Made by a program: the position numbers and the translations under genes
Source of the DNA: Bacillota bacterium
GTDB taxonomy: Bacteria; Bacillota; UBA994; UBA5500
Direction: 5' to 3'
DNA length: 49,298 nucleotides
Assembly: GCA_012735505.1 (NCBI GenBank)
Contig: JAAYHE010000073.1
Span: 1-49,298, forward strand
Shown: positions 6,974 through 28,295 of the stretch, piece by piece
Layout: each line of letters opens with the position of its first letter
Numbering within the stretch: position 1 is the stretch's first letter
Notes under the pieces: generated by a model
The model's input: the letters and a program-made list of their open reading frames with translations, nothing else
What the model was told of the DNA's origin: nothing
Databases searched by the model: none

Positions 6974-7354
6974 CTAGCACGAACCTTCCCCTATCGCCAT
7001 AGCTACAACATAGGCACGGCTATGGGAGATCGAAATCCAGAAACGGCTGATGCCCTGCTGCCTGGCCACAGCTAGCGCTCTATCTTGGAGAACGATCTGA
7101 GGCTGGCCCTGAGCATTGTGCAAGACGCAGACATCGGCAAACCCAAATCCGGAAAACCCAGTGCCCAGCGCCTTGGCCACTGCCTCTTTAGCAACCCAAT
7201 ATCCAGCCAAGGATTCCAGCCTAGCCCCCCGCTGGCGCCAAATATGCCGCTCTGGAGGCGTTAAGAGCCGCTCTATGAATTTATCCCCATACCTAGCCCA
7301 CACCCGGCCAATACGCTCAATTTCTACGATATCTATGCCTGTCCCGCGAATCAA
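6974..7354 (-). CDS. acpS: holo-[acyl-carrier-protein] synthase
   Basis: A 126-residue phosphopantetheinyl transferase that moves 4'-phosphopantetheine from CoA to acyl carrier protein. GTGIDIVEIERI near the N-terminus carries the metal-binding Asp, and WVAKEAVAKALGTG carries the second acidic metal ligand and the CoA-binding lysine. SISHSRAYVVA is the C-terminal family block. Two TTG codons are possible. I prefer 7354 because AAAGG lies 10 bases before it and the protein then opens (M)IRGTGIDIVEIERI as in the family; the TTG at 7363 touches the ribosome binding site. First gene of the acpS-gerS-alr group. Confidence 0.94.
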   Translation of the reverse strand: MIRGTGIDIVEIERIGRVWARYGDKFIERLLTPPERHIWRQRGARLESLAGYWVAKEAVAKALGTGFSGFGFADVCVLHNAQGQPQIVLQDRALAVARQQGISRFWISISHSRAYVVAMAIGEGSC

Positions 7355-7411
7355 TAGCGTCAATCCTTTCGCCCTAGTCGCATTTTACCACCCATTAGAA
7401 ATCATTGCCTT

Positions 7412-7443
7412 ATTATAACCTATTTCTCCCTCAAAAGGTACAA
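7412..7443 (-). promoter_or_regulatory. possible promoter for acpS
   Basis: A perfect -10 TATAAT (7412-7417, minus strand) lies about 60 bp before acpS. The best -35 is TTGTAC at 7438-7443 with a long 20-bp spacer, so only the -10 is convincing. Confidence 0.4.
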
Positions 7444-7472
7444 GCTATCCGCAACGCTGGCTGGGGAACATT

Positions 7473-7508
7473 AGAAACAGGGCTGACGCCTTTGCCGGCC
7501 AGCCCTGT
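7473..7508 (-). terminator. terminator after glmS
   Basis: ACAGGGCTG (7477-7485) pairs with CAGCCCTGT (7500-7508). On the minus strand the stem is followed by TTTCTAATGTT. It lies 24 bp after the glmS stop and ends the cdaA-cdaR-glmM-glmS group. Confidence 0.75.
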
Positions 7509-7531
7509 GAGCCCGTGATTAGCTTAGTTTT

Positions 7532-8653
7532 TTATTCTATAGTCACGCTTTTGTTCAGATTACGAGGTTTATCTACGTTGCAGCCTCGAGCTACAGCTAC
7601 ATAGTAAGCTAGAAGCTGTAAAGGCACAATAGACACTATTGGAGCCAGTAATGGATGCACCTGCGGCAATGACACACGCAAGAGGCCTGGATCTTCGGCC
7701 CCAGGAGAGGCATCGGTATCCACTAGCAGGATTTTGCCGCCTTTCGCCAAAACCTCCTGCATATTGCCCTGCATCCTGTGCCGTAGATGGGGTTGGGTCT
7801 GTAAACAGACCATAAATGCTTTCTCAGTGATCAAAGCAATTGGCCCATGCCTTAATTCGCCGGCAGCTAATGCCCCAGCATGAATATAAGAGGTTTCTTT
7901 TAGCTTTAGAGCAGCTTCTAAGGCACCGGCATAGTCAACTCCCCATCCCATAAAAAAGATGAGCTCTTGCTCGGCAATTTGGTTGGCTAGACCCTGCAGA
8001 AAGCTGCCATACTCTAAAGCGGCTTGCACAGCCTGGGGCAACTCGCGCAAACCCTGCCGGATAGCTGCTAAATCGGCCGCCGGCCTTGTTTGCCGCAGCT
8101 CTGCTAGGTGCACGGCCAATAACAAGAGAACAGCCAATTGGGCCGTGTAAGCTTTAGTGGAAGCGATAGCAACCTCGGTGCCAGCAAGAGTTGGCAGAAC
8201 AGCATCAGCCTGTTGGGCTATAGATGAATTCTGCACGTTAGTTATCGCCCAAACTGGACAACCGCGCCGTTGAGCTTCTTGTAGAGAAGCTAGGGTATCG
8301 GCTGTTTCCCCCGATTGGCTGATAACCAAGACCGCCGTATGCTCATCTAACAAGGGGTTGCGGTAGCGAAACTCCGAAGCGAGATCTACTTCAACCGATA
8401 AGCGCGCTAAACTTTCTATGGCATGCTTGCCCACTAAGCCAGCGTGATGGGAAGTACCGCAGGCAACTATATAAAGCTTGCGTAGAGACTGGGCCTGAGC
8501 CGCAGTCAAGAAGTTAGCCAAGGGCCCCGAATCAGTTTCTAAGTAAGGAGCGATAGTCTGCTGCAGTGCCTGGGGCTGTTCGTGAATTTCTTTTAACATG
8601 AAATGAGCATAGCCGCCTTTTTCCGTAGCTGCTATATTGCCATTTGCTTCCAT
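7532..8653 (-). CDS. glmS: GlmS isomerase half only: glutaminase domain missing, linker frameshifted
   Basis: This frame encodes the C-terminal fructose-6-phosphate isomerase part of glucosamine-6-phosphate synthase (two SIS domains). Recognisable GlmS blocks are AATEKGGYAHFMLKEIHEQP, VACGTSHHAG, ISQSGETADT, LKLKETSYIHAGALAAGELRHGP and the C-terminal VDKPRNLNKSVTIE. The N-terminal glutaminase domain (about 220 residues, starting Met-Cys-Gly) is absent; the 575 bp up to glmM encode nothing like it. Homology to the GlmS linker continues upstream in another frame: EIYSPL is read about 8690-8680, and one extra C in a CCCCC run near 8680 separates it from GMEVVD. I give the ATG at 8653 because GGAGG lies 8 bases upstream; the frame is open to 8710. 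It may be a pseudogene, an ammonia-dependent isomerase, or an assembly fault. Confidence 0.8.
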   Translation of the reverse strand: MEANGNIAATEKGGYAHFMLKEIHEQPQALQQTIAPYLETDSGPLANFLTAAQAQSLRKLYIVACGTSHHAGLVGKHAIESLARLSVEVDLASEFRYRNPLLDEHTAVLVISQSGETADTLASLQEAQRRGCPVWAITNVQNSSIAQQADAVLPTLAGTEVAIASTKAYTAQLAVLLLLAVHLAELRQTRPAADLAAIRQGLRELPQAVQAALEYGSFLQGLANQIAEQELIFFMGWGVDYAGALEAALKLKETSYIHAGALAAGELRHGPIALITEKAFMVCLQTQPHLRHRMQGNMQEVLAKGGKILLVDTDASPGAEDPGLLRVSLPQVHPLLAPIVSIVPLQLLAYYVAVARGCNVDKPRNLNKSVTIE

Positions 8654-8740
8654 ATCTACTACCTCCATTCCTAAGGGGGCTATATATCTCAAAAAACCTA
8701 TCTCGTTCAAGACTATTCAAAAACAGTGGATATAAGACAT
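8654..8740 (-). pseudogene. glmS: frameshifted remnant of the GlmS linker
   Basis: In the frame read from about 8740 the translation contains SLERDRFFEIYSPL, which fits the GlmS segment joining glutaminase and isomerase domains. Removing one C from the five-C run near 8680 would join it to GMEVVDMEANG in the intact downstream frame. A stop lies just upstream at about 8752, and no glutaminase coding precedes it. Confidence 0.55.
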
Positions 8741-8861
8741 AGCCCAAGGCCTATTTTCCGACTAAATGCGTGTATGTTGCAGTCATTTTGTCCGCCCCGA
8801 CGGCGTTGCGGTTACCCTCGGTCGCAGTCATGCCCCCACTCGTGGACGTTTATACGTCACA

Positions 8862-8883
8862 TATTGCTATATCGGTAGGGGCG
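8862..8883 (+). repeat. 22-bp direct repeat, copy A
   Basis: Differs from 9118-9139 at one position out of 22: TATTGCTATATC, then G instead of T, then GTAGGGGCG. It runs directly into the palindrome GGGGCGCCCC. Confidence 0.75.
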
Positions 8884-9046
8884 CCCCGGGTTCATACCGC
8901 ATTAACGTACGCGTCGCTGCGGTCATCCTCGCCGTGATCGCCAGCGACCGTAGGCAAGTGCTCCTTCACCAAGGGGAGTGGCCAGAAATGCGGGGGCCCC
9001 AATCTACTGCTGGGCACTCCTTTATCCTTGGCTCCTTCGGTTTATG

Positions 9047-9093
9047 GCTCCCATGCGCTTTACGGATGACACACACCGCCGCCGCATGGGAGC
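9047..9093. repeat. perfect 11-bp inverted repeat
   Basis: GCTCCCATGCG at 9047-9057 and CGCATGGGAGC at 9083-9093 surround a 25-nt loop. No T-run follows on either strand, so it is not a typical terminator. It lies just before copy B of the direct repeat. Confidence 0.75.
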
Positions 9094-9117
9094 ATTTGTT
9101 GTGCAATACAGATGACG

Positions 9118-9139
9118 TATTGCTATATCTGTAGGGGCG
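9118..9139 (+). repeat. 22-bp direct repeat, copy B
   Basis: Second copy, 21 of 22 bases identical to 8862-8883. It is embedded in the inverted repeats TACAGAT/ATCTGTA (9107-9113, 9127-9133) and GGGGCG/CGCCCC (9134-9139, 9155-9160). Confidence 0.75.
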
Positions 9140-9285
9140 TCATGAAAAATGAACCGCCCCTTGGCGGGACATTTTGAATCACGCCCGCCCGGGAGGCCAC
9201 AGGCCGACCGGGGAAAAGTTGCCCCAGACCGGTGCTAAAAGCCCCAAACTTAACGCATCACCCGCGACCTTTCATAGCAAAAGTG

Positions 9286-10644
9286 TTATTTTCCTTCCTG
9301 TTCGTTTACTTGTTCTATTACTCGGGCTACCAACTGTACCGCAGTTTCTGCTAGCGTCTCGGTAGCAGCCTCGGCCATCACTCTGATCACCGGTTCGGTG
9401 CCTGAAGGGCGCACCAAAAGCCTACCTTGACCTTGCATCATCTGCTCTGCCTGCTGTATGGCCTGCGTGACTGCAACCTCCTGCAAGATGTCGCGGTTGG
9501 CTACCGGCACGTTAAGCAAGACCTGCGGATAAGGTTTTACTACTGCTGCTAGATCTGCCAATGACATGCCGTTCTTGGCAACTATTTCAACCAACTTCAG
9601 CGCCGTCAAAACGCCATCCCCAGTCGTGGCATGATCGAGGAAAATAATATGGCCCGACTGCTCGCCCCCCAGACTGGCCCCCGCTTCCTGCATGGCGGCC
9701 AAGACATAACGATCACCTACTTGCGTTCGCAATAAGCGAATTCCTGCAGCTTCCATAGCCTTCTCTAAGCCGAGATTACTCATCACTGTGGTCACCAGCA
9801 GGTCGTTGGTTAAGTGCCCTTCAGCCTTGAGGGCTAAGGCACAAATAGCCATGATGGCGTCCCCATTTACGACACGCCCCTCATGATCAACAGCAATCAG
9901 GCGATCGGCATCACCATCGAAGGCTAGGCCCAGGTCAGCACCCACTTCTTGCACTTTCTGAGACAAAGCATTGGGATGGGTGGAGCCACATTCTACGTTT
10001 ATATTGAGGCCATTGGGAGCTGCATTGATTACTTCAGTACGGATACCTAGCCGGGTAAAAAGGGTAGGCGCTACCTGAAAGGCAGCCCCGTTAGCACAAT
10101 CTAGCACCACATGCAGGTCATGAAAGGATGGCACCGTCGCCAGATTAGCTAGGTAGTCAACATATAATTCTGACCAATGGAACACATGGTGTACCCGCCC
10201 GACTTGATCGCCGGCTGGACGTGGCAACTGGTGAGAATGATCTAACCAGTATTCAATTTCATCTTCCAGTTCGTCAGGTAATTTGCAGCCGTCGCAGGCA
10301 AAAAACTTGATGCCATTATCAGCAGCCGGGTTATGGGAAGCTGAAATCATGACGCCTGCCTCCAGCGATTGATGCAGAGTTAACCAAGCCACTGCCGGCG
10401 TAGGTACCACGTCTACTAAGTAAGCATCAGCCCCGACGGACAGAATACCAGCTAGCAAAGCATTAGCCAGCAAGTCTCCCGACAGGCGCGTATCTTTGCC
10501 CACTAAAATGCGAATCTTTTCTCCTGCCGCCTTATGCCGAGCCAAGACATAGGCTCCCGCTCGCCCTAGATCAAAAGCTAACTCAGGCGTCAGTACGGTG
10601 TTAGCTACGCCGCGCACCCCATCGGTGCCAAATCTCTTAGCCAT
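9286..10644 (-). CDS. glmM: phosphoglucosamine mutase
   Basis: A 452-residue enzyme converting glucosamine-6-phosphate to glucosamine-1-phosphate on the way to UDP-GlcNAc. The phosphoserine loop is MISASHNPAADNGIKFF, with catalytic Ser103. The Mg-binding loop is DGDADR at 243-248, and the C-terminal phosphate loop is RPSGTEPVIRVM. The start MAKRFGTDGVRG is the canonical GlmM N-terminus, and AAAGGAG precedes it. It sits 30 bp behind cdaR in the conserved cdaA-cdaR-glmM order; in other Firmicutes GlmM also binds and inhibits the cyclase CdaA. Its partner glmS next door is damaged. Confidence 0.98.
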   Translation of the reverse strand: MAKRFGTDGVRGVANTVLTPELAFDLGRAGAYVLARHKAAGEKIRILVGKDTRLSGDLLANALLAGILSVGADAYLVDVVPTPAVAWLTLHQSLEAGVMISASHNPAADNGIKFFACDGCKLPDELEDEIEYWLDHSHQLPRPAGDQVGRVHHVFHWSELYVDYLANLATVPSFHDLHVVLDCANGAAFQVAPTLFTRLGIRTEVINAAPNGLNINVECGSTHPNALSQKVQEVGADLGLAFDGDADRLIAVDHEGRVVNGDAIMAICALALKAEGHLTNDLLVTTVMSNLGLEKAMEAAGIRLLRTQVGDRYVLAAMQEAGASLGGEQSGHIIFLDHATTGDGVLTALKLVEIVAKNGMSLADLAAVVKPYPQVLLNVPVANRDILQEVAVTQAIQQAEQMMQGQGRLLVRPSGTEPVIRVMAEAATETLAETAVQLVARVIEQVNEQEGK

Positions 10645-17008: not shown

Positions 17009-17947
17009 TTAGAGAATGAAGCGAGTACCTGCCTTTCCTTGTAATGCGGCAGACCCTGCCTCTAGAGATGTGATGATGGCAATCTCGCCACCTTCCTCTA
17101 CAAAACTACAAGCCGCCTCTACTTTGGGGCCCATGCTGCCAGCACGAAAATGGCCTTCCGCCTGATAGCGGCGTGCCTCGGCTACATGCACCTCACCCAG
17201 CCACTCTTGTCCCGGGCTTCCCCAATTGATGGCCACAGCTTTTACATCGGTAAGAATCAGCAAAATTTCTGCCCCAATATCGACTGCTAGCCGTTGGCTA
17301 GCCAAATCTTTATCAATAACCGCCTCAATTCCTCGCAGCCCCCGCTCAGTCTCGACGACGGGGATGCCGCCCCCTCCAGCTGCAATCACAACTGCCCCGC
17401 TCGCTAGCAAGTTCAAAATCGCCTCCCGCTCTTGTATACGCAAGGGTGTGGGTGACGGCACCAGGCGTCGCCAACCGCCTCGTGCCTTATCTTCCTGCAT
17501 TATGTAACCTTGCGTCGCCGCTAACTCTTGGGCTTGGGCGGCAGAAAAATACGGTCCGATCGGCTTGGTCGGCTGCTTTAAAGCAGGATCATCGGCAGCA
17601 ATACTCACTTGTGTCACTACAGTCACTACTGGTTGCAGATGACCGTGCTGCCGGAGGATATTAGTTAAGGATTGCTGCAAGAGATATCCGATCTGGCCCT
17701 GGGTTTGGGCGCCACAAACGTCAAGAGGCATAGCTGGAACTAAATCGCTAGCCTTTTCGTTTTGCAGAAGAATATTGCCTACTTGGGGACCATTACCATG
17801 GGTGATAACCACCCGATACCCAGCCATAATCATAGCTGCTATTTGCCCCGCTGCCTGGTCGATGTTGGCTAGCTGCTGCTCCACTGTGCCTGCCTGGCCC
17901 GCCTGTAAAATGGCATTGCCTCCTAAGGCAACTACTACCTTTTTCAC
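17009..17947 (-). CDS. arcC: carbamate kinase
   Basis: A 312-residue amino-acid kinase-fold enzyme that transfers phosphate from carbamoyl phosphate to ADP, giving ATP and carbamate. KKVVVALGGNAI at the N-terminus, THGNGPQVGN (about 49-58), the DKARGGWRRLVPSP block and VIAAGGGGIPV are the carbamate kinase signatures; DKDLASQRLA and DVKAVAINWG follow. Length is normal. No carbamoyltransferase or arginine deiminase gene lies in the window, so its carbamoyl phosphate must come from elsewhere. It follows amrS by 39 bp in the apparent operon. Confidence 0.96.
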   Translation of the reverse strand: MKKVVVALGGNAILQAGQAGTVEQQLANIDQAAGQIAAMIMAGYRVVITHGNGPQVGNILLQNEKASDLVPAMPLDVCGAQTQGQIGYLLQQSLTNILRQHGHLQPVVTVVTQVSIAADDPALKQPTKPIGPYFSAAQAQELAATQGYIMQEDKARGGWRRLVPSPTPLRIQEREAILNLLASGAVVIAAGGGGIPVVETERGLRGIEAVIDKDLASQRLAVDIGAEILLILTDVKAVAINWGSPGQEWLGEVHVAEARRYQAEGHFRAGSMGPKVEAACSFVEEGGEIAIITSLEAGSAALQGKAGTRFIL

Positions 17948-17986
17948 ACCAAATTACCCCTTTCTTCTCACTATGTCTTACCACCG

Positions 17987-18946
17987 TTAGCTAAGGCAAA
18001 ACGGCAATTTGCGCCCACAGTTTTGACACTTGCCTTGCTCTAGACCTAGAGTAAGAACCGATACGAAATCGCGTTGAACGACTAACTGCCCGCATCGGGG
18101 ACAGTAGGTGTCTACGTGCATCCCCACATTGCCTAGATAGACAAAGTTTAGCTTTTCTGCAGCTACTTGCCGCAACTGTTCCAAGGAAGATACTGGGGTA
18201 GCTGCAATTTTTAGCTTATAATTGGGAAAATATCGTGTCAAGTGCAGGGGTATGTCTGGCGACAAAGAAGCTACCCAATCTGCCAAGCGAGCCATTTCTT
18301 CCGGCCGATCGTTTTTTCCCGGGATCACCAAATATGTCAGCTCTACATGGCTTTGCTCATAAGCTAGGGCCACATTCCTCAATACTGGTTCAAGGCTAGC
18401 ACCACATAATTCCCGGTAGAATTCTTCGGTGAAAGCTTTGACGTCAATATTCAAGGCATCGATGTGCTGTAGTAGCGCTTGCCACGGTTCGGGCTGGAGA
18501 TAGCCATTGGTAATCAGTGCCGTCTTCAGCCCTTTATCTTTAGCTAGCCTCGCCGTGTCCAAGACGAATTCATAGTCCATAGTCGGCTCGTTATAGGTGA
18601 AGGCTATCCCGATCTGTTTGGGATCCGACCTTTGCTCTGCCAGGGCCAAGGCTACCACTTGGGCTGGAGTCATCTTTACTGTTTGGGCCTGTTGATGGGC
18701 TATATGGTAATTCTGACAAAAGGAGCAGCTCAGGTTGCAACCTAGCCCACCGATGGAAAGGACATGGGTGCCCGGATAAAAATGATAGAGGGGCTTTTTC
18801 TCTATGGGGTCAACAGCAATAGCCGTAATCTGGCCATAGTTGATAGGCACTAGCTGTCCTTGGCGCACAGTCCGCTGCCGGCACCGCCCTACTTTACCTT
18901 CAGTTAAACGACAGGCATGGGGACAAAGGCGGCAAATAGTTGGCAT
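17987..18946 (-). CDS. amrS: AmmeMemoRadiSam system radical SAM enzyme
   Basis: A 319-residue radical SAM protein (formerly grouped as PflA-like). The N-terminus has a cysteine cluster (Cys5, Cys8, Cys12, Cys22). The radical SAM 4Fe-4S motif is Cys70-X3-Cys74-X2-Cys77 in GCNLSCSFCQNYH. FTYNEPTMDYEFVLDTA and TNGYLQPEPW are AmrS family blocks. The C-terminus carries a second zinc-ribbon-like set (CPRCG, CQNCG). The substrate of the AmmeMemoRadiSam system is unknown in the literature as I know it. The ATG at 18946 has TAGGAGGTAGAC upstream and lies 13 bp after amrA, so the two are co-transcribed. Confidence 0.93.
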   Translation of the reverse strand: MPTICRLCPHACRLTEGKVGRCRQRTVRQGQLVPINYGQITAIAVDPIEKKPLYHFYPGTHVLSIGGLGCNLSCSFCQNYHIAHQQAQTVKMTPAQVVALALAEQRSDPKQIGIAFTYNEPTMDYEFVLDTARLAKDKGLKTALITNGYLQPEPWQALLQHIDALNIDVKAFTEEFYRELCGASLEPVLRNVALAYEQSHVELTYLVIPGKNDRPEEMARLADWVASLSPDIPLHLTRYFPNYKLKIAATPVSSLEQLRQVAAEKLNFVYLGNVGMHVDTYCPRCGQLVVQRDFVSVLTLGLEQGKCQNCGRKLPFCLS

Positions 18947-18959
18947 GTCTACCTCCTAA

Positions 18960-20378
18960 TTAATGAAAGCGAGTGACCGTAAAGCGATATAGTTTGACCG
19001 GCTCCTGCGGGCCGATGCCGGCTTTAAGCTTAGCCACACGCACTTGTTCCTGGATGCTGTCAATGCCTGGCAGGTCAGGCAAGAGTAGCCCCCGGCGACG
19101 ACCACGCTCAACGATAACCCCGTAAGTCTCAGGGTCGAGTTCTTCTTCATTGGCGATAGCTTCAGGCTCACCTAGAACATCAACCGAGTAGACTAGGCTA
19201 GCCAACTCCTCGGGCTCTACCCTATAAAAGCGTGGGTCTTCGGTGGCAGCGCTGATAGCGTTTCTCACTATTTCAGCTGCCAAGGTAGGGCAAGTCGGCT
19301 CAGTAGTACCGATACAACCTCTCAGTTGGCCGTGTTTATAAATAGTTACGAAAGCACCCGCCCTAACCGGCAATTCTGCCGGCAGCGGTGGCAGTTGGCT
19401 CAGTACGCGTCCTTCACCCACATAGGTCTCTACCGCTTGTCTAGCCAGACGCACCAAGGGCGACTCGTTAGCTCTTTGTTCGGCTACTCGTGCCTGACGC
19501 GACGCCAACAATCGCGGCAGATTAACAGCCCCTTGCCCCTCGCTTACCTGCTGCCAGGCTACTAAATAGCCTACGCCCCAAGGCGCTTCGTATGACAAGA
19601 CCTTGCTTTCACCAGCTAAGCCTTCAAAGCAACCTAAGAAGACGACCAAGGGCCGCAAGCCACATTCACCGGCCACCTGCCCCAGTTCTTCTAAGCGAGC
19701 TAGATCCCAGGGCGACTGGGAGGCAAATATCTCGGTTACCGCCTCGTCAAATAGATGGGCTTCGGGGTGATATCCAGCCGGAGCAACAGGGCTGAGGCGA
19801 TGAGACAAGTCGCCGCTAGCAATGATGCCTACCCTTTTCCCCTGCTCTTGCACCGCTGCTTGAATTGCTACTCCTAGGGCATAGTGTTCTTCCAAGGGTA
19901 ATCCGGCCACATTGATAATGACTAGCGGTGGCAAATCGCCTGACCCCGCCTGGCGCAAATACCAGAGGGGGACTAATGCTCCATGATCTAAACTTAGCGG
20001 CAAATTCATCCTCCGCTTGAGACGGTCTGTCAAGCCAGCCAAAGGCAGCTGCTTCTGCTCGGCAACGGACAAAACGGCTGTTAGCAAGCTTTGGTCACAA
20101 GTCACAGTAATACACTCGCCAGCTGCGCCAAAACTGGCGAAACTGCCGCTTAGATTCGGGCCCACCTCTAAAGAAAAGGAGTCGGAAAAGATGGGGCCAT
20201 GGGAGCCGATTAGGATAATAGTCTCTGGTTTGAGGTCGACCATAGCCGCAGCGGCTTGCTGCATTGCCTCGATGGTAGCCTGCGCCTCTTTTTCTTCGCC
20301 TTGGCCAACGGCAGGGATGATGATAGGCGGATGCGGGCTATACCAGCCACCGATAATTCCTGCGTTCACATGGTTCAC
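18960..20378 (-). CDS. amrA: AmmeMemoRadiSam system protein A: LigB/Memo-like domain fused to AMMECR1
   Basis: A 472-residue two-domain protein. Residues 1-275 resemble the class III extradiol dioxygenase (LigB)/Memo fold, with GGWYSPHPPIIIP, ETIILIGSHGPIF, LDHGALVPLWYL and IIASGDLSHRL supplying His/Asp residues at the usual metal-site positions. Residues about 304-472 are AMMECR1, with the invariant LRGCIG at 352-357 and the ISAATEDPRF block. The fusion implies that Memo-like and AMMECR1 activities act together, next to the radical SAM partner. The GTG start at 20378 overlaps the ornithine racemase stop as GTGA. The reaction is unknown. Confidence 0.9.
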   Translation of the reverse strand: MNHVNAGIIGGWYSPHPPIIIPAVGQGEEKEAQATIEAMQQAAAAMVDLKPETIILIGSHGPIFSDSFSLEVGPNLSGSFASFGAAGECITVTCDQSLLTAVLSVAEQKQLPLAGLTDRLKRRMNLPLSLDHGALVPLWYLRQAGSGDLPPLVIINVAGLPLEEHYALGVAIQAAVQEQGKRVGIIASGDLSHRLSPVAPAGYHPEAHLFDEAVTEIFASQSPWDLARLEELGQVAGECGLRPLVVFLGCFEGLAGESKVLSYEAPWGVGYLVAWQQVSEGQGAVNLPRLLASRQARVAEQRANESPLVRLARQAVETYVGEGRVLSQLPPLPAELPVRAGAFVTIYKHGQLRGCIGTTEPTCPTLAAEIVRNAISAATEDPRFYRVEPEELASLVYSVDVLGEPEAIANEEELDPETYGVIVERGRRRGLLLPDLPGIDSIQEQVRVAKLKAGIGPQEPVKLYRFTVTRFH

Positions 20379-21451
20379 TCCTCGTAGTTCTTGTATACTT
20401 TATGCACATAAGCCGATGTGCTAGCTGCCAACAAGGCAGCATAGTTGAGGCCAAAACTAAATACCTGGCCTACTTTTACCTTACCCGGATAAGCGCCTAC
20501 ATCTAACAGCAGATGGTCGCTGCTGGCACCAAGCACTGTTATACCCGGATCCAGAGGAGCCAGTCCCCCAGGGTCCACGTCTTGCTTACCGATAGCTACA
20601 ATAGCCCTCCTTTGTAACCCCCGGTCGACAAAAACGGGCTTGTTACCAAAGGCGTCTTGGCCAATATGTCCGACGGGCACCGAGGGCTTTTGCTTCACTT
20701 CTACTACTTCGGCCTGCAAAACCACAGCATCAGTATGAAGGCCCGCAATAGGGTGACGAGACACAGTTTCTCTGCCTAAAATCAAGGATTCGCCCAGACG
20801 CAAATTGTTGATACCCCTGGGTATCTTGCCCTCCTGTAGTAACTGCAAACTGCTCGAGTTTCCCCCCGAGACGATTTCGCATTGTACTAGCCCCTGGCGT
20901 TCCAGCTCGCGCGCCAAGTCGACCAAAATGCCTAGGTTTTTTGGGCTGGGGATTACTCCTCCATAACAAGTCAGGTTCGTGCCCAAACCAGCTATTTGCA
21001 GACCAGGGAGCCCTATAGCCCGCTTGACAAACGGAATGACTTGATCGGGCCAAAGCCCCTCCCGTAGATCCCCTACATCCACCATTAACAAGACACGGTG
21101 TTGCCGCTGGGCGGCAACTGCCGCCTGGCTGAGAGCCTGCAGGGTCGTCCATTCGCTGTTGAGGCTACAAGCGGCAATATGCACCACCGCCTCCGCTTGG
21201 CGCGGGCTGGGTAAACGCAATAATACTTTAGGTGTGTCTGGGAAACTGCTGGCGAGGCGTCTAAGATTGGTCAAGCGTGAATCGGCTAAAGCGGTAACAC
21301 CACCAGCCAACATGGCTGCCCCTACCGGAGGCGCACCACCTAAGACCTTTGTCACACCCCAAATGCTAATTGAAAAGGACTTGGCCAAATCCACCAAGGT
21401 CTGAGCGTTATGACGCAGCTTAGCCACATCTATACGCAAAAGCGGATACAC
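20375..21451 (-). CDS. orr: ornithine racemase
   Basis: A 358-residue fold-type III PLP enzyme with an alanine-racemase N-terminal barrel. Lys35 in WGVTKVLGG is the Schiff-base lysine. NNLRLGESLILG, LGTNLTCYGGV and the C-terminal ASSDHLLLDV match ornithine racemase rather than alanine racemase. It makes D-ornithine for the aminomutase OraSE. I take the GTG at 21451 because AAAGG lies 8 bases upstream and the protein opens (M)YPLLRIDVAKL as in the family; the frame is open to a GTG at 21478. Its stop overlaps the amrA start. The identification relies strongly on the adjacent ornithine genes. Confidence 0.92.
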   Translation of the reverse strand: MYPLLRIDVAKLRHNAQTLVDLAKSFSISIWGVTKVLGGAPPVGAAMLAGGVTALADSRLTNLRRLASSFPDTPKVLLRLPSPRQAEAVVHIAACSLNSEWTTLQALSQAAVAAQRQHRVLLMVDVGDLREGLWPDQVIPFVKRAIGLPGLQIAGLGTNLTCYGGVIPSPKNLGILVDLARELERQGLVQCEIVSGGNSSSLQLLQEGKIPRGINNLRLGESLILGRETVSRHPIAGLHTDAVVLQAEVVEVKQKPSVPVGHIGQDAFGNKPVFVDRGLQRRAIVAIGKQDVDPGGLAPLDPGITVLGASSDHLLLDVGAYPGKVKVGQVFSFGLNYAALLAASTSAYVHKVYKNYEE

Positions 21452-21522
21452 CTTTATCACCCTTTCAGTCGCGACCACCGATGCAGCCTAGCGTTGCTTG
21501 CACACCAGCCAGCGATCTCCAG

Positions 21523-22878
21523 CTAAATCCCCAAGCTTTGGTACATTAGCTGCAGGGCGGCGTCGGGGAATAGGTTGGCCAACACACCTAGGGCGGCCAA
21601 GTTGTAATGGCGATCAATAAGCACTTCCGCAGTCGTTGGTGGCAATAGCATGCCGCGACGAGGGCGATGCAAGAGGGTACGCAACAGTTGTTTGCCGTTA
21701 GGCAACTTAGTCAGGGGCCCTCCCGTGCCTATCACATAGCGCACATTGCCCAAATCTTTACCGCTAGCGATAGTCACTTGCCCCTGGGGACCATAAAGCT
21801 GTTTGAGGCGACCGGCATGCCGCTCGAGCGCAATGCCAGCGGCTGCCTCGGTCAGTGCCTGTAAGAATTGCAGATGGGTTGCAGACGTAGGCATAGCCTC
21901 CCAGCCGGCTAACAGACTAGCGACATCTATACTTAACCGCTGGGATAAGTTAGCTGCGCCTATGCTTTCTACCACATGGCCTGCATTGATAAAAACCCCT
22001 AGGTCACCTTCCACCGTGCGCTTAGCCAAGGGTTCGGGATGGAGCAGCAGGCGTCTGGTCGCATCGGAGCCAGGTGTAACCGAGTGGACGTCGGTAGTTG
22101 CACCGCCGACATCTATTACCAATAGGTCACCGATAGCCGTATACAGTAGCTCTGTGGCAGCCAAAACAGCCCCCGGTGTGGGCATAATCGAACCAGTGAC
22201 CATCTGCCTGATCCTTTCCATCCCCGGGGCAAACACAATATGTTCTGCAAAAACCTGTTGGATAACCTGCCGCGTTGGCTCTACATTCAGCTCGTCGATA
22301 GCAGGATAGACATTGGCTACCACATAGTGGGGTAGGCCAGCTACTTGCATAATAGCTTTAAATTCGTTGGCAGCAGCGCGGTTGCCAGCGTAAACAATGG
22401 GAGCGCTGAGCTTAGCTGCAGCCAGCTGCCTAGCATTAGTCAAAATGGTAGCTGTATCTCCATAGTCGACTCCGCCCGCGAGAAGGATAATATTAGGCCG
22501 CAGTTGTTTAAGGGCTGTAATGTCTGCCGCCGTCAGCTCCCCAGCCGTAACCATGCTAACAACGGCTCCTGCTCCCAGCGCTGCCTCTCTTGCTGCCCGG
22601 ACTGTCATATCCAACACCAGGCCGTGGACACTCATACGCAGTCCCCCGGCCGCACTGCTGCAGGCTAACATCGCATCCCATTGTAAATTCTGGCCAGCGC
22701 GAGATTCGAAATCTAGAATAGCCTGCTTGAGGCCGATAGTAACGTCACCCAGCTTGACCGAGGTCGGGGCTTGCCCCTGGCCGAGCCAGCGAGGCTCGGC
22801 CGTATCTAGGTCGGTGAAGGCGTTGACGACAGTAGTGGTGCTACCGATTTCAGCCACCAACACTTCTGCGTACAGCAT
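21523..22878 (-). CDS. MutL/GlmL-type accessory ATPase of the ornithine aminomutase cluster
   Basis: A 451-residue member of the glutamate mutase L family, with the ASKHA/actin-like ATPase fold. VAEIGSTTTVVNAF (about 7-20) and VIDVGGATTDVHSVT are its two phosphate-binding loops, and IILLAGGVDYGD is the adenosine-side motif. Such proteins accompany B12-dependent carbon-skeleton and aminomutases and are thought to reactivate or remake the cobalamin-bound enzyme. It lies 20 bp after oraE and 71 bp before orr, the usual place in ornithine clusters. The ATG at 22878 has AAAGGA 9 bases upstream. Confidence 0.93.
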   Translation of the reverse strand: MLYAEVLVAEIGSTTTVVNAFTDLDTAEPRWLGQGQAPTSVKLGDVTIGLKQAILDFESRAGQNLQWDAMLACSSAAGGLRMSVHGLVLDMTVRAAREAALGAGAVVSMVTAGELTAADITALKQLRPNIILLAGGVDYGDTATILTNARQLAAAKLSAPIVYAGNRAAANEFKAIMQVAGLPHYVVANVYPAIDELNVEPTRQVIQQVFAEHIVFAPGMERIRQMVTGSIMPTPGAVLAATELLYTAIGDLLVIDVGGATTDVHSVTPGSDATRRLLLHPEPLAKRTVEGDLGVFINAGHVVESIGAANLSQRLSIDVASLLAGWEAMPTSATHLQFLQALTEAAAGIALERHAGRLKQLYGPQGQVTIASGKDLGNVRYVIGTGGPLTKLPNGKQLLRTLLHRPRRGMLLPPTTAEVLIDRHYNLAALGVLANLFPDAALQLMYQSLGI

Positions 22879-22898
22879 GGTTGCCCGTCCTTTCTGGC

Positions 22899-25088
22899 CT
22901 ACTGGTCGGAGCGCAAGGCCCGTCGCCGTCTCACCAAAAAGCTAGCCACGTGTATACCCTTAGTTCCCCGGCCAAAACCAGCGTCTAGACCACATTCTAG
23001 AGCCATTTCGTTATTGACCTGTGTGCCACCACCGACAAGGATGAAGCGCTCCCGCACGCCTTTTTCTACACAGAGCTCGTGCAAACGGCGCATATTGAGG
23101 CGATGGACGTCGGCATGGGTAATGATAGTACTCACCAAGATAGCATCGGCAGCCGTTTCGATAGCTGCATCGATCACTTTTTGTACTGGCACCGATGTAC
23201 CTAGGTAAATGCACCGGATCCCAAAGCCCTCTAGGCCGCCATGTTTAATATCGATGATTTCCCGCATGCCGACCGAATGTTCATCCTCCCCGATTGTCGC
23301 GGCCACCACTGTCAGAGGATGTTTGGCTATATCCTCTCTAATCGCAGCTTCCGACAACAGAGGCGTTGGTTCGGGAATAACTAGGCTAGCGGGATTGATA
23401 TTAAAAGGCACTCGCCCCTTCATCTCCAGATAAGTGCCTTCAGCCGGTTGCATGACCTGCTTATGAATTACCTCACAGTCAGTCAACCCTAAGCGTTCGC
23501 CCATGGCTAGGGCAGCAGCTTCGGCTGTACGCACGTCGGTAGGTAAGAAAATCTGCAGATTGATATAGCCGTCGCCTGCCCACTCCACCTCGGGCACAAT
23601 TCCGCCCCCGCTGGCCGCGGCCACTTGCTGCAGCCGCTTCTCAACATTGTCTTCGGGGTCAAGTTCATCGATATAAGCTATCTTTTCTGGCCGACAGAGG
23701 GTACAACCACCTACCAGTTGGCAAGGGCTAGCCAGCTCCGCCGGTAAATTGTTATAACCGAAATGGGCACAAACCGGAGCAAAATAATCAGGATCCCGCG
23801 GTACAACCGTATTAGCACCAACCCCTCCCTGCGGATCACGCGCGATACCATCTCCGCTGCGCTCGGGGTAATAACCAGAGTCAACGAAGAAGCCCTGGCT
23901 TACTGCCGCAAAATAGCCCCCTACCTCTAAGATTTCCTCCATAAAGAGCACGGCTCGCTCTTTAATCTCCCGCACCTGTTGCCGCAATGGCCCATCAATT
24001 TTAAATTCTATCATATCGGTAATGCCATCTAGGGCCAAGAGGGCTTGTTTAGCTGTATTGATAGCGTGGATGCTGTTATAATGCCATGGCACATTACGCC
24101 CCTCGTCTGGCGTAATGGTGCTTTGAATGTCGGCCGAGGTCAGCCGGGAAATTAAGACGTTAAGCGTATGGGTGACAATCGCTTCGCGGGTATCCGACTC
24201 GATGTATTTGGTATTCATCTGGGCCCGCATGCGATAGCCCGCAAAGAGCTCCCGCAAGGCGATAGCATAGGGCAAATCATAGCGCAAAGCCGGGGCTGGG
24301 CTAGCGCTTGGCGGCACGGTAGACAGGCAGATCATATCTTTAGGCATTCCCACCTGTACCGAAAAGGCGCTATTGATGGCATGCTGCACCAAAAGCTCGG
24401 GCATCACTTTCCAAGCCTCTCTCGCCGTGGCATTGGCGTTATGAGCGCCGTCAATCTGGGCCATACCGGCATAGGCCATAAGCCGTTTAGCCACTGCTGC
24501 GTCGACAAAGGAGCGTTGCATGTTTACATTACGATAGAGCACGTTGTATTGGGGGTCTTGATGGGCGCCATTTACTCCTTCTTCTGCAAACAAAACAGCA
24601 ATTTCGGGGCCGGCTACACCACTAACATAGGAATGAAAATTGATAGGGCGCCCGACCTCATCCTCGATCAGATCTAGGGCCTTACGTGTGGCCCGCACCT
24701 GTTTGCGAGTAATCGGAACACCACCGACACCCTCCGGCGTACCTTCGATTAAGCCATCATAGTGACTTTGGCCCGCGGTACGAATCACCATAATATGATC
24801 AGCCCCATGCCAAGCTGCCATCCGCATCCGCCGCAAGTCGTCTTCAAAACGTCCCGAAGCAATTTCGGCTGTAATCACACAATCGGGCTGGGGATCTATA
24901 TCACCAAAATACTTGCTAGCAGGTAAAGGTATACTTTGCTTTAAGGGTTGGGAAGTTTGTTTGTAAGTAAACGGGCCCATTTTCTGCTCTGGTACGGGTT
25001 GCCGCCAGGTCCAGCCGCGGCGCCTGGGCCGATAATGCTCTAGATCTTTTAGAATAAGCTGTATATCTAACTTATCCTCAGGCTTCAT
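22899..25088 (-). CDS. oraE: D-ornithine 4,5-aminomutase, large (B12/PLP) subunit
   Basis: A 729-residue adenosylcobalamin- and PLP-dependent enzyme converting D-ornithine to 2,4-diaminopentanoate. The N-terminal two-thirds is the TIM-barrel substrate domain; the C-terminal Rossmann domain binds B12. The DXHXXG motif is DEHSVG (602-607), so His604 should be the lower cobalt ligand. Lys615 in IDIKHGG, 11 residues later, occupies the spacing of the known PLP lysine (His618/Lys629 in Clostridium sticklandii OraE). The start is the ATG at 25088, behind AAGGAGG with 9-base spacing; it overlaps the oraS end by 11 bp. Confidence 0.97.
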   Translation of the reverse strand: MKPEDKLDIQLILKDLEHYRPRRRGWTWRQPVPEQKMGPFTYKQTSQPLKQSIPLPASKYFGDIDPQPDCVITAEIASGRFEDDLRRMRMAAWHGADHIMVIRTAGQSHYDGLIEGTPEGVGGVPITRKQVRATRKALDLIEDEVGRPINFHSYVSGVAGPEIAVLFAEEGVNGAHQDPQYNVLYRNVNMQRSFVDAAVAKRLMAYAGMAQIDGAHNANATAREAWKVMPELLVQHAINSAFSVQVGMPKDMICLSTVPPSASPAPALRYDLPYAIALRELFAGYRMRAQMNTKYIESDTREAIVTHTLNVLISRLTSADIQSTITPDEGRNVPWHYNSIHAINTAKQALLALDGITDMIEFKIDGPLRQQVREIKERAVLFMEEILEVGGYFAAVSQGFFVDSGYYPERSGDGIARDPQGGVGANTVVPRDPDYFAPVCAHFGYNNLPAELASPCQLVGGCTLCRPEKIAYIDELDPEDNVEKRLQQVAAASGGGIVPEVEWAGDGYINLQIFLPTDVRTAEAAALAMGERLGLTDCEVIHKQVMQPAEGTYLEMKGRVPFNINPASLVIPEPTPLLSEAAIREDIAKHPLTVVAATIGEDEHSVGMREIIDIKHGGLEGFGIRCIYLGTSVPVQKVIDAAIETAADAILVSTIITHADVHRLNMRRLHELCVEKGVRERFILVGGGTQVNNEMALECGLDAGFGRGTKGIHVASFLVRRRRALRSDQ

Positions 25089-25458
25089 TAGCGAGAGCCT
25101 CCTTTTCAGCCAACTGGGCACTGACTAGATCCCAGCCTTCACCCTGTAGCAAGCGGCGGCCGGCCGTGAGACAATCTGTTCCCCACGCCTCGGCTGCTAT
25201 ATAGACAAGATGGCCTGCGCCTTTACCGAGCAGGTCACGCTCTAATATGGCTTGCACCAATGCCTGAGCCTCTAAGCTATTAAAACCAAGGCGCAACAAA
25301 ACCGACCGCTCCACCGATGGGGACGTATTCTTCTCGGCTAGCTCCACCAAAGGGGCGACGATAGCCTCGGCCAACTGCCAGAAGCGAGCTGCTAACTCGG
25401 CATCAGTCAGCCCCGCCAGGTGTTGCCGCCTCGTCGCGTAGTCTTCTTTACGCTGCAC
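25078..25458 (-). CDS. oraS: D-ornithine 4,5-aminomutase, small subunit
   Basis: A 126-residue helical subunit that pairs with OraE. REDY-type residues near the start (MQRKEDYATRRQHLAGLTD), FWQLAEAIVAPLVELAEKNTSPSVERSVLLRLGF and GAGHLVYIAAEAWG match OraS. It has no cofactor-binding motif of its own; the family role is structural. The GTG start at 25458 follows AAAGGAGTGGTCAA. It overlaps oraE by 11 bp, as expected for subunits made in equal amounts. Confidence 0.95.
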   Translation of the reverse strand: MQRKEDYATRRQHLAGLTDAELAARFWQLAEAIVAPLVELAEKNTSPSVERSVLLRLGFNSLEAQALVQAILERDLLGKGAGHLVYIAAEAWGTDCLTAGRRLLQGEGWDLVSAQLAEKEALANEA

Positions 25459-25491
25459 TTGACCACTCCTTTATGCTAATTTGGCAAATTT

Positions 25492-26907
25492 CTAAGGCAC
25501 CCTTACCTCTAGCTCCCGCGCTACCTGCAAAACCAGTTTCCGGCTAGCGCGAGCGTCAGCCTGTAGGAAAGCTATATCTTCGGGGCTTAGCTCGGTAATG
25601 GCGGTGCGACGCAAGGCATTGCGCACATAGGAACGGCGTAAGTCGTCCAAATCATAATCGCGCACTGCTATCTGCGCCGGGTCTTCTGGGATAAGGATCG
25701 AGTGTCCCGGCCGACTATCGCGCGGGTCTCCCCGTCTTACCTCAATTCCCTGCTGGCGAGCAAAGGTCAACTGGGCCAGCGGATGTTTGCCGGCACCTGT
25801 ATACTCGGTTTCTTGCACTACTAAAATCTGGTCTGCCGGCATGGTCTGGGCCACCGCAAAGGCAGCAGCCAGTGACGTGTTGCCGGCGGGGCCGCGCTCT
25901 AAGCCCTCCAATTGGGCCAACATCTCGGTAGCGTAAAAAACCTCTCCTTGGGTTACGGTTACGTAACGGTCTAAATAGCGGAGAGGACGGGCCGCATTAC
26001 GGGGCACATCCGCCCGGTCAGGCCAGGTAGCGAAGGGAACTCCAAAGCCAGTGTGGCCGGTGGTAAACGATTTGCGGTTAAAGTCGCGATCGCTGGCCAT
26101 GTGCAAGCCACTCAGGTCGACACTGGCCCCGACTACCTGCGTCGTGCTTGCGCCTGCTTGCTGCAGGCCGCGAGCTGTGCCGGTAACATTGCCACCACCG
26201 GCATGGGTTACCATGACTACATCAGGGAAGCGTCCAGTTCTAGCTAAAATCTCTTCCGCAATTTCAGCTCCTAAACTCTCCACCCCCGCGATGGCATAGG
26301 GGGTATATAGACTGGCATTAAAATAGCCGGTCTCCTCTAGGAGAGTGAGAAAAACATAAAACAATTCGGGTCCGACAGTAAGCTGGCAGACCTCTGCACC
26401 ATAGGCTTCACAGGCTCTAGTTTTTTCTAGAATTTCGGGCTGCCCCACACCGCGACTGTCAAATACCTCCTGCACTACAATACAAGCGAGCCCTCGCATA
26501 GCTGCCTGGGAAGCAACGGCTGCGCCGTAGTTGCCGCTGGTAGCAGCGATTACACCCTTATAACCCAGCTGTTGGGCCTGATATACCGAGATAGCAGCTC
26601 GACGAGCCTTAAAGCTACCCGAAGGGTTACAAGCTTCATCTTTGAGGAAAATGCGGGCGCCAAAAGCAGGGGGAGCCAACTGGCGGGCTAAACGTGTTAT
26701 GTTTTTCAGTTCCAGGAGGGGCGTCTGCCCCACACCCGTCTCGGCCTGAATACGGCGCACACTGGCCAAATCATAACCGGTAGCAGCCATCATGCCCTCA
26801 TAGTCGAAGGCTATGGCCGACTGCTCAAACTGCTGATAATCGAATCCGATCGCCTTTTTCATAATTTCATTTTGACGGGCCATGACCGACTGATAACTAC
26901 TTGGCAT
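25492..26907 (-). CDS. ortB: 2-amino-4-oxopentanoate thiolase, PLP subunit
   Basis: A 471-residue fold-type II PLP enzyme. With OrtA it cleaves 2-amino-4-oxopentanoate with CoA to acetyl-CoA and D-alanine. KDEACNPSGSFKARRA holds the Schiff-base lysine (Lys100), and AATSGNYGAAVASQAA is the phosphate/substrate loop typical of threonine-synthase-like enzymes. The ATG at 26907, opening MPSSYQSVMARQNEIMKKA, has GGAGGG upstream and overlaps ortA by 11 bp; a longer open frame to 26982 is unsupported. Length fits OrtB. Confidence 0.96.
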   Translation of the reverse strand: MPSSYQSVMARQNEIMKKAIGFDYQQFEQSAIAFDYEGMMAATGYDLASVRRIQAETGVGQTPLLELKNITRLARQLAPPAFGARIFLKDEACNPSGSFKARRAAISVYQAQQLGYKGVIAATSGNYGAAVASQAAMRGLACIVVQEVFDSRGVGQPEILEKTRACEAYGAEVCQLTVGPELFYVFLTLLEETGYFNASLYTPYAIAGVESLGAEIAEEILARTGRFPDVVMVTHAGGGNVTGTARGLQQAGASTTQVVGASVDLSGLHMASDRDFNRKSFTTGHTGFGVPFATWPDRADVPRNAARPLRYLDRYVTVTQGEVFYATEMLAQLEGLERGPAGNTSLAAAFAVAQTMPADQILVVQETEYTGAGKHPLAQLTFARQQGIEVRRGDPRDSRPGHSILIPEDPAQIAVRDYDLDDLRRSYVRNALRRTAITELSPEDIAFLQADARASRKLVLQVARELEVRVP

Positions 26908-27217
26908 CTCTGCTTCCCTCCAATAGCCGGCGCAACTCGGCACCGATAGTGAGTAACTCGGGCACTGGTTCGCCAAAATCATGGCTGTGTCTGGGGTTAA
27001 TTGCGGTTACAAGGCCCCGTTGGGTGCGTCCGATGACAGTCGTAATCTCAGCTTCCTGCCCTAAGGCTGCAGCCTGCTTAAGGAAACCTTTGACCCGTAA
27101 TTCCAACGGCACCTGGGCAGTATCTGCTGGCAGCTGAGGCGCTCTTTCACCCGGCTGCAGTATAATGCGCCGGATCTCCACCCAAGTACCCGCCGGCCAA
27201 ATCCTTTTGTCTGACAT
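26897..27217 (-). CDS. ortA: 2-amino-4-oxopentanoate thiolase, small subunit
   Basis: A 106-residue partner of OrtB. WPAGTWVEIRRIILQPGERAPQLP followed by PLELRVKGFL and ITTVIGRTQRGLVTAINPRHSHDFG matches OrtA. It carries no recognisable catalytic domain. The ATG at 27217 lies 2 bp after the ord stop, and its end overlaps ortB by 11 bp. Confidence 0.95.
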   Translation of the reverse strand: MSDKRIWPAGTWVEIRRIILQPGERAPQLPADTAQVPLELRVKGFLKQAAALGQEAEITTVIGRTQRGLVTAINPRHSHDFGEPVPELLTIGAELRRLLEGSRDAK

Positions 27218-27219
27218 AC

Positions 27220-28221
27220 CTACACCCCTTTCAGTATCGGTAGGTCAAGCATAGTCTTTAAACCTGGGGAAGCAACACAAAGCAGGGGCAACATGTTCAC
27301 CGCCATAGCTATCGTGCCGATGCCCCCTGGAATCTCTGGCCTGATAGCCAGATTAATCTCTGGCGTGCCAGCGATATGAATAAAGTCACCTGTGTTCACG
27401 TTCTCTAGCTCTGGTCTAACCTGTTGGGGATGTTCTAAGGTGATCAAGATCTTACCATTCTTCTTCCCATAAGCTATATGCCGACAACCTGCCACCATGC
27501 CAGGTTGAACCTTGACATGGGGAGTTTCCCGGTAGACGGAAGAAACGATGGGCTCCTGGGTTTGCACTATTTCGTCTAGCTCCCAGCCTAAAGCTTCGGC
27601 TATCATCTGGATAGATTCGGGAAAGCCTACGTGACCAACGATGGTGCCCGCTGCCAAACCGGCTTCGAATTCTGCCACCGTAGTGCCCACCCCTTGGGTG
27701 CGCATCACCGCTGGGCCAAAAGGTGATAAGTCGTTCACCCGGATAGCATGAATAGACTTGATGTCTAGGCAAACACGGGTTAAAGCGATGATCAGGCTAT
27801 CTAGGACGAAACCCGGATTGATGCCTGTACCAAGAATAGCAACCCCCTGCTCTCTTGCCAGCTGGTCAAGTTCGCGGGCTAGATCTGGGCTTTGTGCCGC
27901 CGGATAAGCCATTTCCTCTGCTATAGTGACTACATGCATACCAGCCTGCACTGCCTGTTTAATTTGAGGTGCAACCTCATGCGTAAACGACGCCGTCGAG
28001 ATAATAACGGCATCGGCAAGGCCCGGCTGCAGCAGTGCCTCTGGCCGGGCGGTGGCGACAACAGTAGAATTGCCGGCACCGATTATCTCGGCCAAGGAAC
28101 GACCCCGGCTAGAACTACTGATGACACCAACAATTTCATAGTTCGGGCGCTCCAGAAGGGCAGAAGCGATACCCCGCCCCATGGCCCCCATGCCCCAAAG
28201 AACCACTCTGATCTTTTTCAT
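27220..28221 (-). CDS. ord: 2,4-diaminopentanoate dehydrogenase
   Basis: A 333-residue NAD(P)-dependent dehydrogenase that oxidatively deaminates 2,4-diaminopentanoate at C4 to 2-amino-4-oxopentanoate. The Rossmann glycines are visible in VLWGMGAMGRGI (Gly10, Gly12, Gly15). The dihydrodipicolinate-reductase-like C-terminal part contains GVGTTVAEFEAGLAAGTIVGHVGF. I choose the ATG at 28221 because GAGG lies 7 bases upstream; the ATG two codons earlier is too close to it. It is the first gene behind the sigma-54 promoter at 28296-28311. Confidence 0.96.
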   Translation of the reverse strand: MKKIRVVLWGMGAMGRGIASALLERPNYEIVGVISSSSRGRSLAEIIGAGNSTVVATARPEALLQPGLADAVIISTASFTHEVAPQIKQAVQAGMHVVTIAEEMAYPAAQSPDLARELDQLAREQGVAILGTGINPGFVLDSLIIALTRVCLDIKSIHAIRVNDLSPFGPAVMRTQGVGTTVAEFEAGLAAGTIVGHVGFPESIQMIAEALGWELDEIVQTQEPIVSSVYRETPHVKVQPGMVAGCRHIAYGKKNGKILITLEHPQQVRPELENVNTGDFIHIAGTPEINLAIRPEIPGGIGTIAMAVNMLPLLCVASPGLKTMLDLPILKGV

Positions 28222-28295
28222 GCACATACCTCACTCTTATTAAAATCTAGTCGGGCAACAGTGTGACAAGGCACTTTTCATTTAAGATTAATAAA

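Follow-up and report, generated by a model that had tools for sequence, protein, structure and literature searches.

A GlmS isomerase without its glutaminase half next to glmM in a Bacillota genome, probably an ammonia-using glucosamine-6-phosphate synthase

The window analysed here is a stretch of 49,298 nucleotides from the genome of a Bacillota bacterium (1.92 Mb in 87 contigs, 98.9% complete). At 7532..8653 on the minus strand it contains a gene for a stand-alone GlmS isomerase of 373 amino acids, identified by an ATG start with a Shine-Dalgarno sequence, profile matches and an AlphaFold model. The gene is located directly after an intact glmM (9286..10644, minus strand), coding for phosphoglucosamine mutase, the next step of the pathway. 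The longest open reading frame of the isomerase extends over 7532-8710 of the minus strand from a TTG start at 8710; it is open throughout and has two SIS domains and a conserved, intact C-terminus, as the original prediction, made from the sequence of the window, had described this half of the protein. Translation probably begins at the ATG at 8651-8653, which follows a GGAGG ribosome-binding site (8662..8666, minus strand) situated 8 bases ahead of it, again as predicted, and yields the product of 373 residues. The gene begins at the linker, like the other stand-alone forms described below.

No glutaminase is found in any frame between this gene and glmM, and 8600-9285 holds no remnant of one. 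When the full-length GlmS of G001, the closest relative that has the gene, was compared with all frames of the window, nothing matched upstream of about 8630-8640. The space was said to be too short for the lost domain, and the distances agree: 575 bp separate the TTG at 8710 from glmM vs the ~710 bp that the GlmS of G001 needs before the equivalent linker point. A one-base shift of the linker in a CCCCC run (8675-8679) had been proposed too, a claim that finds no support because there is no recognisable linker homology upstream to be shifted. The place of the lost half is filled by an interspersed repeat (8832..9243, no strand assigned) of which the genome has tens of copies at 70-90% identity. 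It is made of at least two blocks, ~9122-9231 and 8915-9082, which in some copies have opposite orientation, and it has no match in Rfam. The locus contains no Ns. Neither a glmS ribozyme nor any other Rfam element was detected at 7300-9500 (there was one chance match), and a scan of 7400-9400 gave no sigma-70-like promoter.

In G001, a member of the same family as the window's organism, glmM is followed by a full-length GlmS, acpS, a lipoprotein gene and alr, which is also the gene order of the window. The window locus is therefore the orthologous place minus the glutaminase half. The original prediction had called for a search of the genome for a second full-length glmS or a split glutaminase, and neither turned up in the assembly: there is no second GlmS and no GlmS-type glutaminase, the sole match to the GATase_6 profile being PurF. 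A NagB-type protein, which would be an alternative source of glucosamine-6-phosphate, is equally absent from the window's genome. Two more members of the family, G002 (L181, 86% complete) and G003 (L182, 94% complete), have no match to the GlmS isomerase or to the GlmS glutaminase. Canonical NagB (PF01182) is present in both and in G001. This enzyme interconverts glucosamine-6-phosphate with fructose-6-phosphate and ammonia reversibly and therefore could serve the same need as the window enzyme, making glucosamine-6-phosphate from ammonia when run in reverse in these three genomes, but it has an unrelated fold. The window also contains the full set of ornithine fermentation genes that had been anticipated (Orr, the GlmL-related Or-4, OraE, OrtB, OrtA and Ord; 20375..28227, minus strand), a likely source of ammonia. 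Beside this cluster, at 17009-20378, are found a carbamate kinase and genes of the AmmeMemoRadiSam system (radical SAM enzyme and protein A domain).

GlmS opens cell-wall amino-sugar synthesis and is generally described as depending on glutamine, from which the ammonia is delivered through a sealed channel. The best solved relatives of the window protein are GlmS isomerase domains, and its AlphaFold model (mean pLDDT 87.8) has the E. coli GlmS isomerase domain as best PDB match, with a TM of ~0.9. It shares with GlmS (TIGR01135 / PRK00331; E. coli 1jxa, 2j6h) this fold, the position after glmM and the catalytic residues E481, K485, E488, H504 (codon at 7847..7849, minus strand) and K603, numbered here and below as in E. 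coli, but it differs in lacking the glutaminase domain with its nucleophilic Cys1 and in the substitutions V399I, I489T and A602N. It passes the PRK00331 cutoff (428.8 vs 381 bits) and narrowly misses the curated one of TIGR01135 (410.3 vs 418.05 bits); this miss and the absent glutaminase keep it from being classed as a glutamine-dependent GlmS. NagB-II (8eol, NF046059) is similar in being SIS-only without a glutaminase, in handling the same metabolites and in having a polar residue at 602, but it keeps Val at the position equivalent to 399, where the window protein has Ile, and the assignment as a NagB-II deaminase fails on a score of 143.6 bits against the NF046059 cutoff of 430. The synthetase module of the two-subunit GMP synthetase can use external ammonia (PMC10526850), but that system retains a separate glutaminase subunit, and none was found in the window's genome.

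Isomerase-only GlmS proteins of 360-390 amino acids with the same linker start recur in other genomes. They are found directly after glmM in G029, G137, Pelotomaculum sp. UBA5255 (L072), G414, G249 and G053. The carriers include genomes resembling that of Syntrophomonas wolfei, one of which, G029, is complete in one contig of 2,936,195 bases. In G249 (L142) glmM, a stand-alone isomerase (I399) and a full-length GlmS (V399) stand in tandem. The genomes with the stand-alone form only, several of them incomplete assemblies and G029 a single contig, have no NagB and no GlmS-type glutaminase; their best matches (E ~1e-15 to 1e-20, compared with ~1e-75 for a true GlmS) have the size of PurF or AsnB. 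Some members of the class have a canonical paralogue or are located away from glmM, so that neither the sole copy nor the linkage is universal; the window gene is both the sole GlmS of its genome and linked to glmM. The first survey of the phylum collected best matches only and gives no frequency of the stand-alone forms.

A maximum-likelihood tree built from 64 isomerase domains places the window protein together with the full-length GlmS of G001 (support 100/99). The glutaminase-less or glutaminase-dead state requires eight changes on this tree, and branches with good support force at least seven of them. Spread of the stand-alone class by transfer from one origin was rejected, since forcing one clade gave a p-AU of 4e-89. 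The bootstrap is incompletely settled, and some placements are uncertain owing to the long branches of L165, L054 and the window protein; L072 may group with L165 for this reason.

The stand-alone forms differ consistently from other GlmS proteins at three positions. We compared 104 domain-complete GlmS isomerases with the first 14 stand-alone forms found, and V399I, I489T and the change of A602 to T, N, V, S or Q were each present in all 14, the window protein included, with the five catalytic residues kept in every one. The window codons are Ile at 399 (8165..8167), Thr at 489, beside the catalytic Glu488 (7892..7894), and Asn at 602, beside the catalytic Lys603 (7553..7555), all on the minus strand. 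Among the domain-complete enzymes V399 is found in 103 and A602 in 102 of the 104, T489 in three, and a substitution of A602 in 1-2. The only one with I399 is L058 (Clostridia bacterium AS09scLD_21), which starts with M-S-G instead of M-C-G and so has lost the glutaminase nucleophile (Cys1 to Ser). The arginine and tyrosine of the E. coli 26/28 motif are also changed in this protein, which has T489 and keeps A602. For a paired-loss test the tree was rebuilt without sites 399, 489 and 602; V399I accompanied the loss of the glutaminase in seven of seven independent pairs (sign test p 0.016), I489T in 5-7 and A602X in 5-6 of the seven, and for none of the three substitutions did any pair go in the opposite direction.

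When 399 Bacillota genomes were searched blind with a degenerate DNA pattern encoding the I399 motif, there were nine matches, five of them known stand-alone forms and four new. By type, six are isomerase-only and three are full-length proteins with a dead glutaminase. One of the new matches, G053, is a stand-alone form adjoining glmM; the other three, G192 (L164), G256 (L163) and G472 (L162), are full length, start with L/M-S-G (C1S) and carry R26H and W74L. A canonical GlmS is also present in G256 and G053, so both forms coexist there. The dead-glutaminase genes of G472, G256 and G192 adjoin glmM.

V399 and A602 are among the isomerase-site contacts reported in docking studies of GlmS, whose channel is solvent-inaccessible and whose only glutaminase catalytic residue is Cys1 (reviewed in PMC9272926). 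The isolated isomerase domain of E. coli is reported to have a phosphoglucose-isomerase-like activity (Leriche 1996, as cited in PMC7948480), which weighs against an ammonia-using isomerase. A602 flanks the catalytic lysine. In three glutaminase-free enzymes of the SIS deaminase type position 602 is Asn (3fj1 and 7kqa) or Lys (8eol), and two of the three have Thr489. The simplest reading of the three substitutions is that they would help the isomerase to take free ammonia. The E. coli GlmS, to our knowledge, does not use it, another point against an ammonia-using window enzyme.

The same loss at least seven times with the same active-site changes points to a working free-ammonia enzyme and not to a broken gene. 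We consider it highly probable that the window gene codes for a functional stand-alone GlmS that uses free ammonia and is the only glucosamine-6-phosphate synthase of the organism. This option, which the original prediction had listed beside a pseudogene and a misassembly, is strongly favoured by the recurrence of the architecture, the purifying selection on the relatives, the shared convergent changes and the conserved catalytic residues, to which are added the synteny with G001 and an assembly that has no other GlmS or glutaminase. The activity of the product and ammonia as its nitrogen donor are what we infer from the sequence. The isomerase would bind fructose-6-phosphate, and free cytosolic ammonia would replace the ammonia channelled from glutamine. 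The chemistry of E488, H504 and K603 would then give glucosamine-6-phosphate, to be passed to the adjacent GlmM. V399I, I489T and A602N, lining the sugar and ammonia site, would have been acquired after the loss of the glutaminase, as independently in other anaerobes. Fold and chemistry are those of GlmS, and architecture and nitrogen source would be new. We found neither a natural GlmS lacking its glutaminase nor the residue signature described in the open-access literature searched; subscription papers lie outside that search, and this is weak evidence of novelty.

The stand-alone class evolves under purifying selection, as derived from dN/dS values of 0.10-0.16 in stand-alone pairs (0.10 in a dead-glutaminase pair and 0.05-0.08 in pairs of intact GlmS). 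Synonymous sites are saturated between the window gene and G001, and this evidence comes from the relatives only. In relative-rate tests the window isomerase has evolved at roughly twice the rate of its G001 counterpart (50 vs 23 changes), with no such acceleration in glmM (27 vs 22). Other loss lineages are accelerated too (35 v 13, 58 v 13, 48 v 19 and 29 v 9), that of G020 weakly (55 v 43). In addition, R472W and E495G are found in the window protein alone, at positions unchanged in all the other stand-alone forms. Together with the fast evolution they could represent early decay, and they would fit, as would the repeat near the break, a pseudogene whose glutaminase half was deleted by recombination between repeats and whose remaining isomerase no longer functions. 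We nevertheless judge such a decaying gene unlikely: its 373 codons are open and include all the catalytic residues, the three convergent changes are common to independent lineages under purifying selection, and glmM is intact although no other source of glucosamine-6-phosphate was found.

The isomerase might instead be partnered by an unlinked glutaminase subunit, with nitrogen still taken from glutamine. Split amidotransferases are known, the two-subunit GMP synthetase being an example, but the lack of a GlmS-type glutaminase in the window's genome and in the stand-alone-only genomes, one of them complete, and the change of residues beside the catalytic Lys603 and Glu488 at each loss make this very improbable. 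We give an equally small chance to a catabolic, NagB-II-like glucosamine-6-phosphate deaminase working mainly towards fructose-6-phosphate: the SIS-only architecture and the resemblance of Asn602 and Thr489 to NagB-II-type enzymes are outweighed by the 410-429 bits to GlmS models vs 144 to the NagB-II model, by the adjacency to glmM, which points to biosynthesis, and by the fact that in several genomes this protein is the only candidate for glucosamine-6-phosphate synthesis. Scarcely credible is a misassembly in which repeat DNA was joined to the second half of an existing full-length glmS; the genome is in many contigs and the break is close to a member of a repeat family, but this repeat shares no exact run of more than 32 bases with any other fetched copy and a false join through it is therefore unlikely, ~190 bp of non-repeat sequence separate it from the first conserved GlmS residues, the missing half is nowhere in the assembly, and the window protein bears the signature of glutaminase loss, not expected in an intact GlmS.

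Beyond the window, an ammonia-using enzyme of this type would rather probably represent an unrecognised class of ammonia-dependent GlmS with at least seven origins in anaerobic Bacillota. The changes at 399 and 489 on each occasion, and at 602 on nearly all, would be determinants of the switch from channel-fed to free ammonia, and the nitrogen source would be predictable from residue 399 alone. Repeated natural losses of the glutaminase, accompanied by convergent substitutions, provide ready-made evolutionary experiments in which the residues that keep free ammonia out of GlmS become directly testable, and they may tie the enzyme to ammonia-rich anaerobic habitats. Annotation pipelines may label genes of this kind as truncated or as pseudogenes, and GlmS inhibitors that are glutamine analogues should have no action through a stand-alone enzyme. 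Two other genes deserve mention. In L148 (G126) a canonical GlmS is broken by an apparent frameshift within the glutaminase region, probably a sequencing or recent fault because its isomerase keeps V399. The full-length GlmS L151 (G444) is placed as sister of the S. wolfei-type stand-alone clade. Its glutaminase looks intact and it keeps V399, but it already has T489 and T602, as would suit a possible intermediate or dual-donor enzyme.
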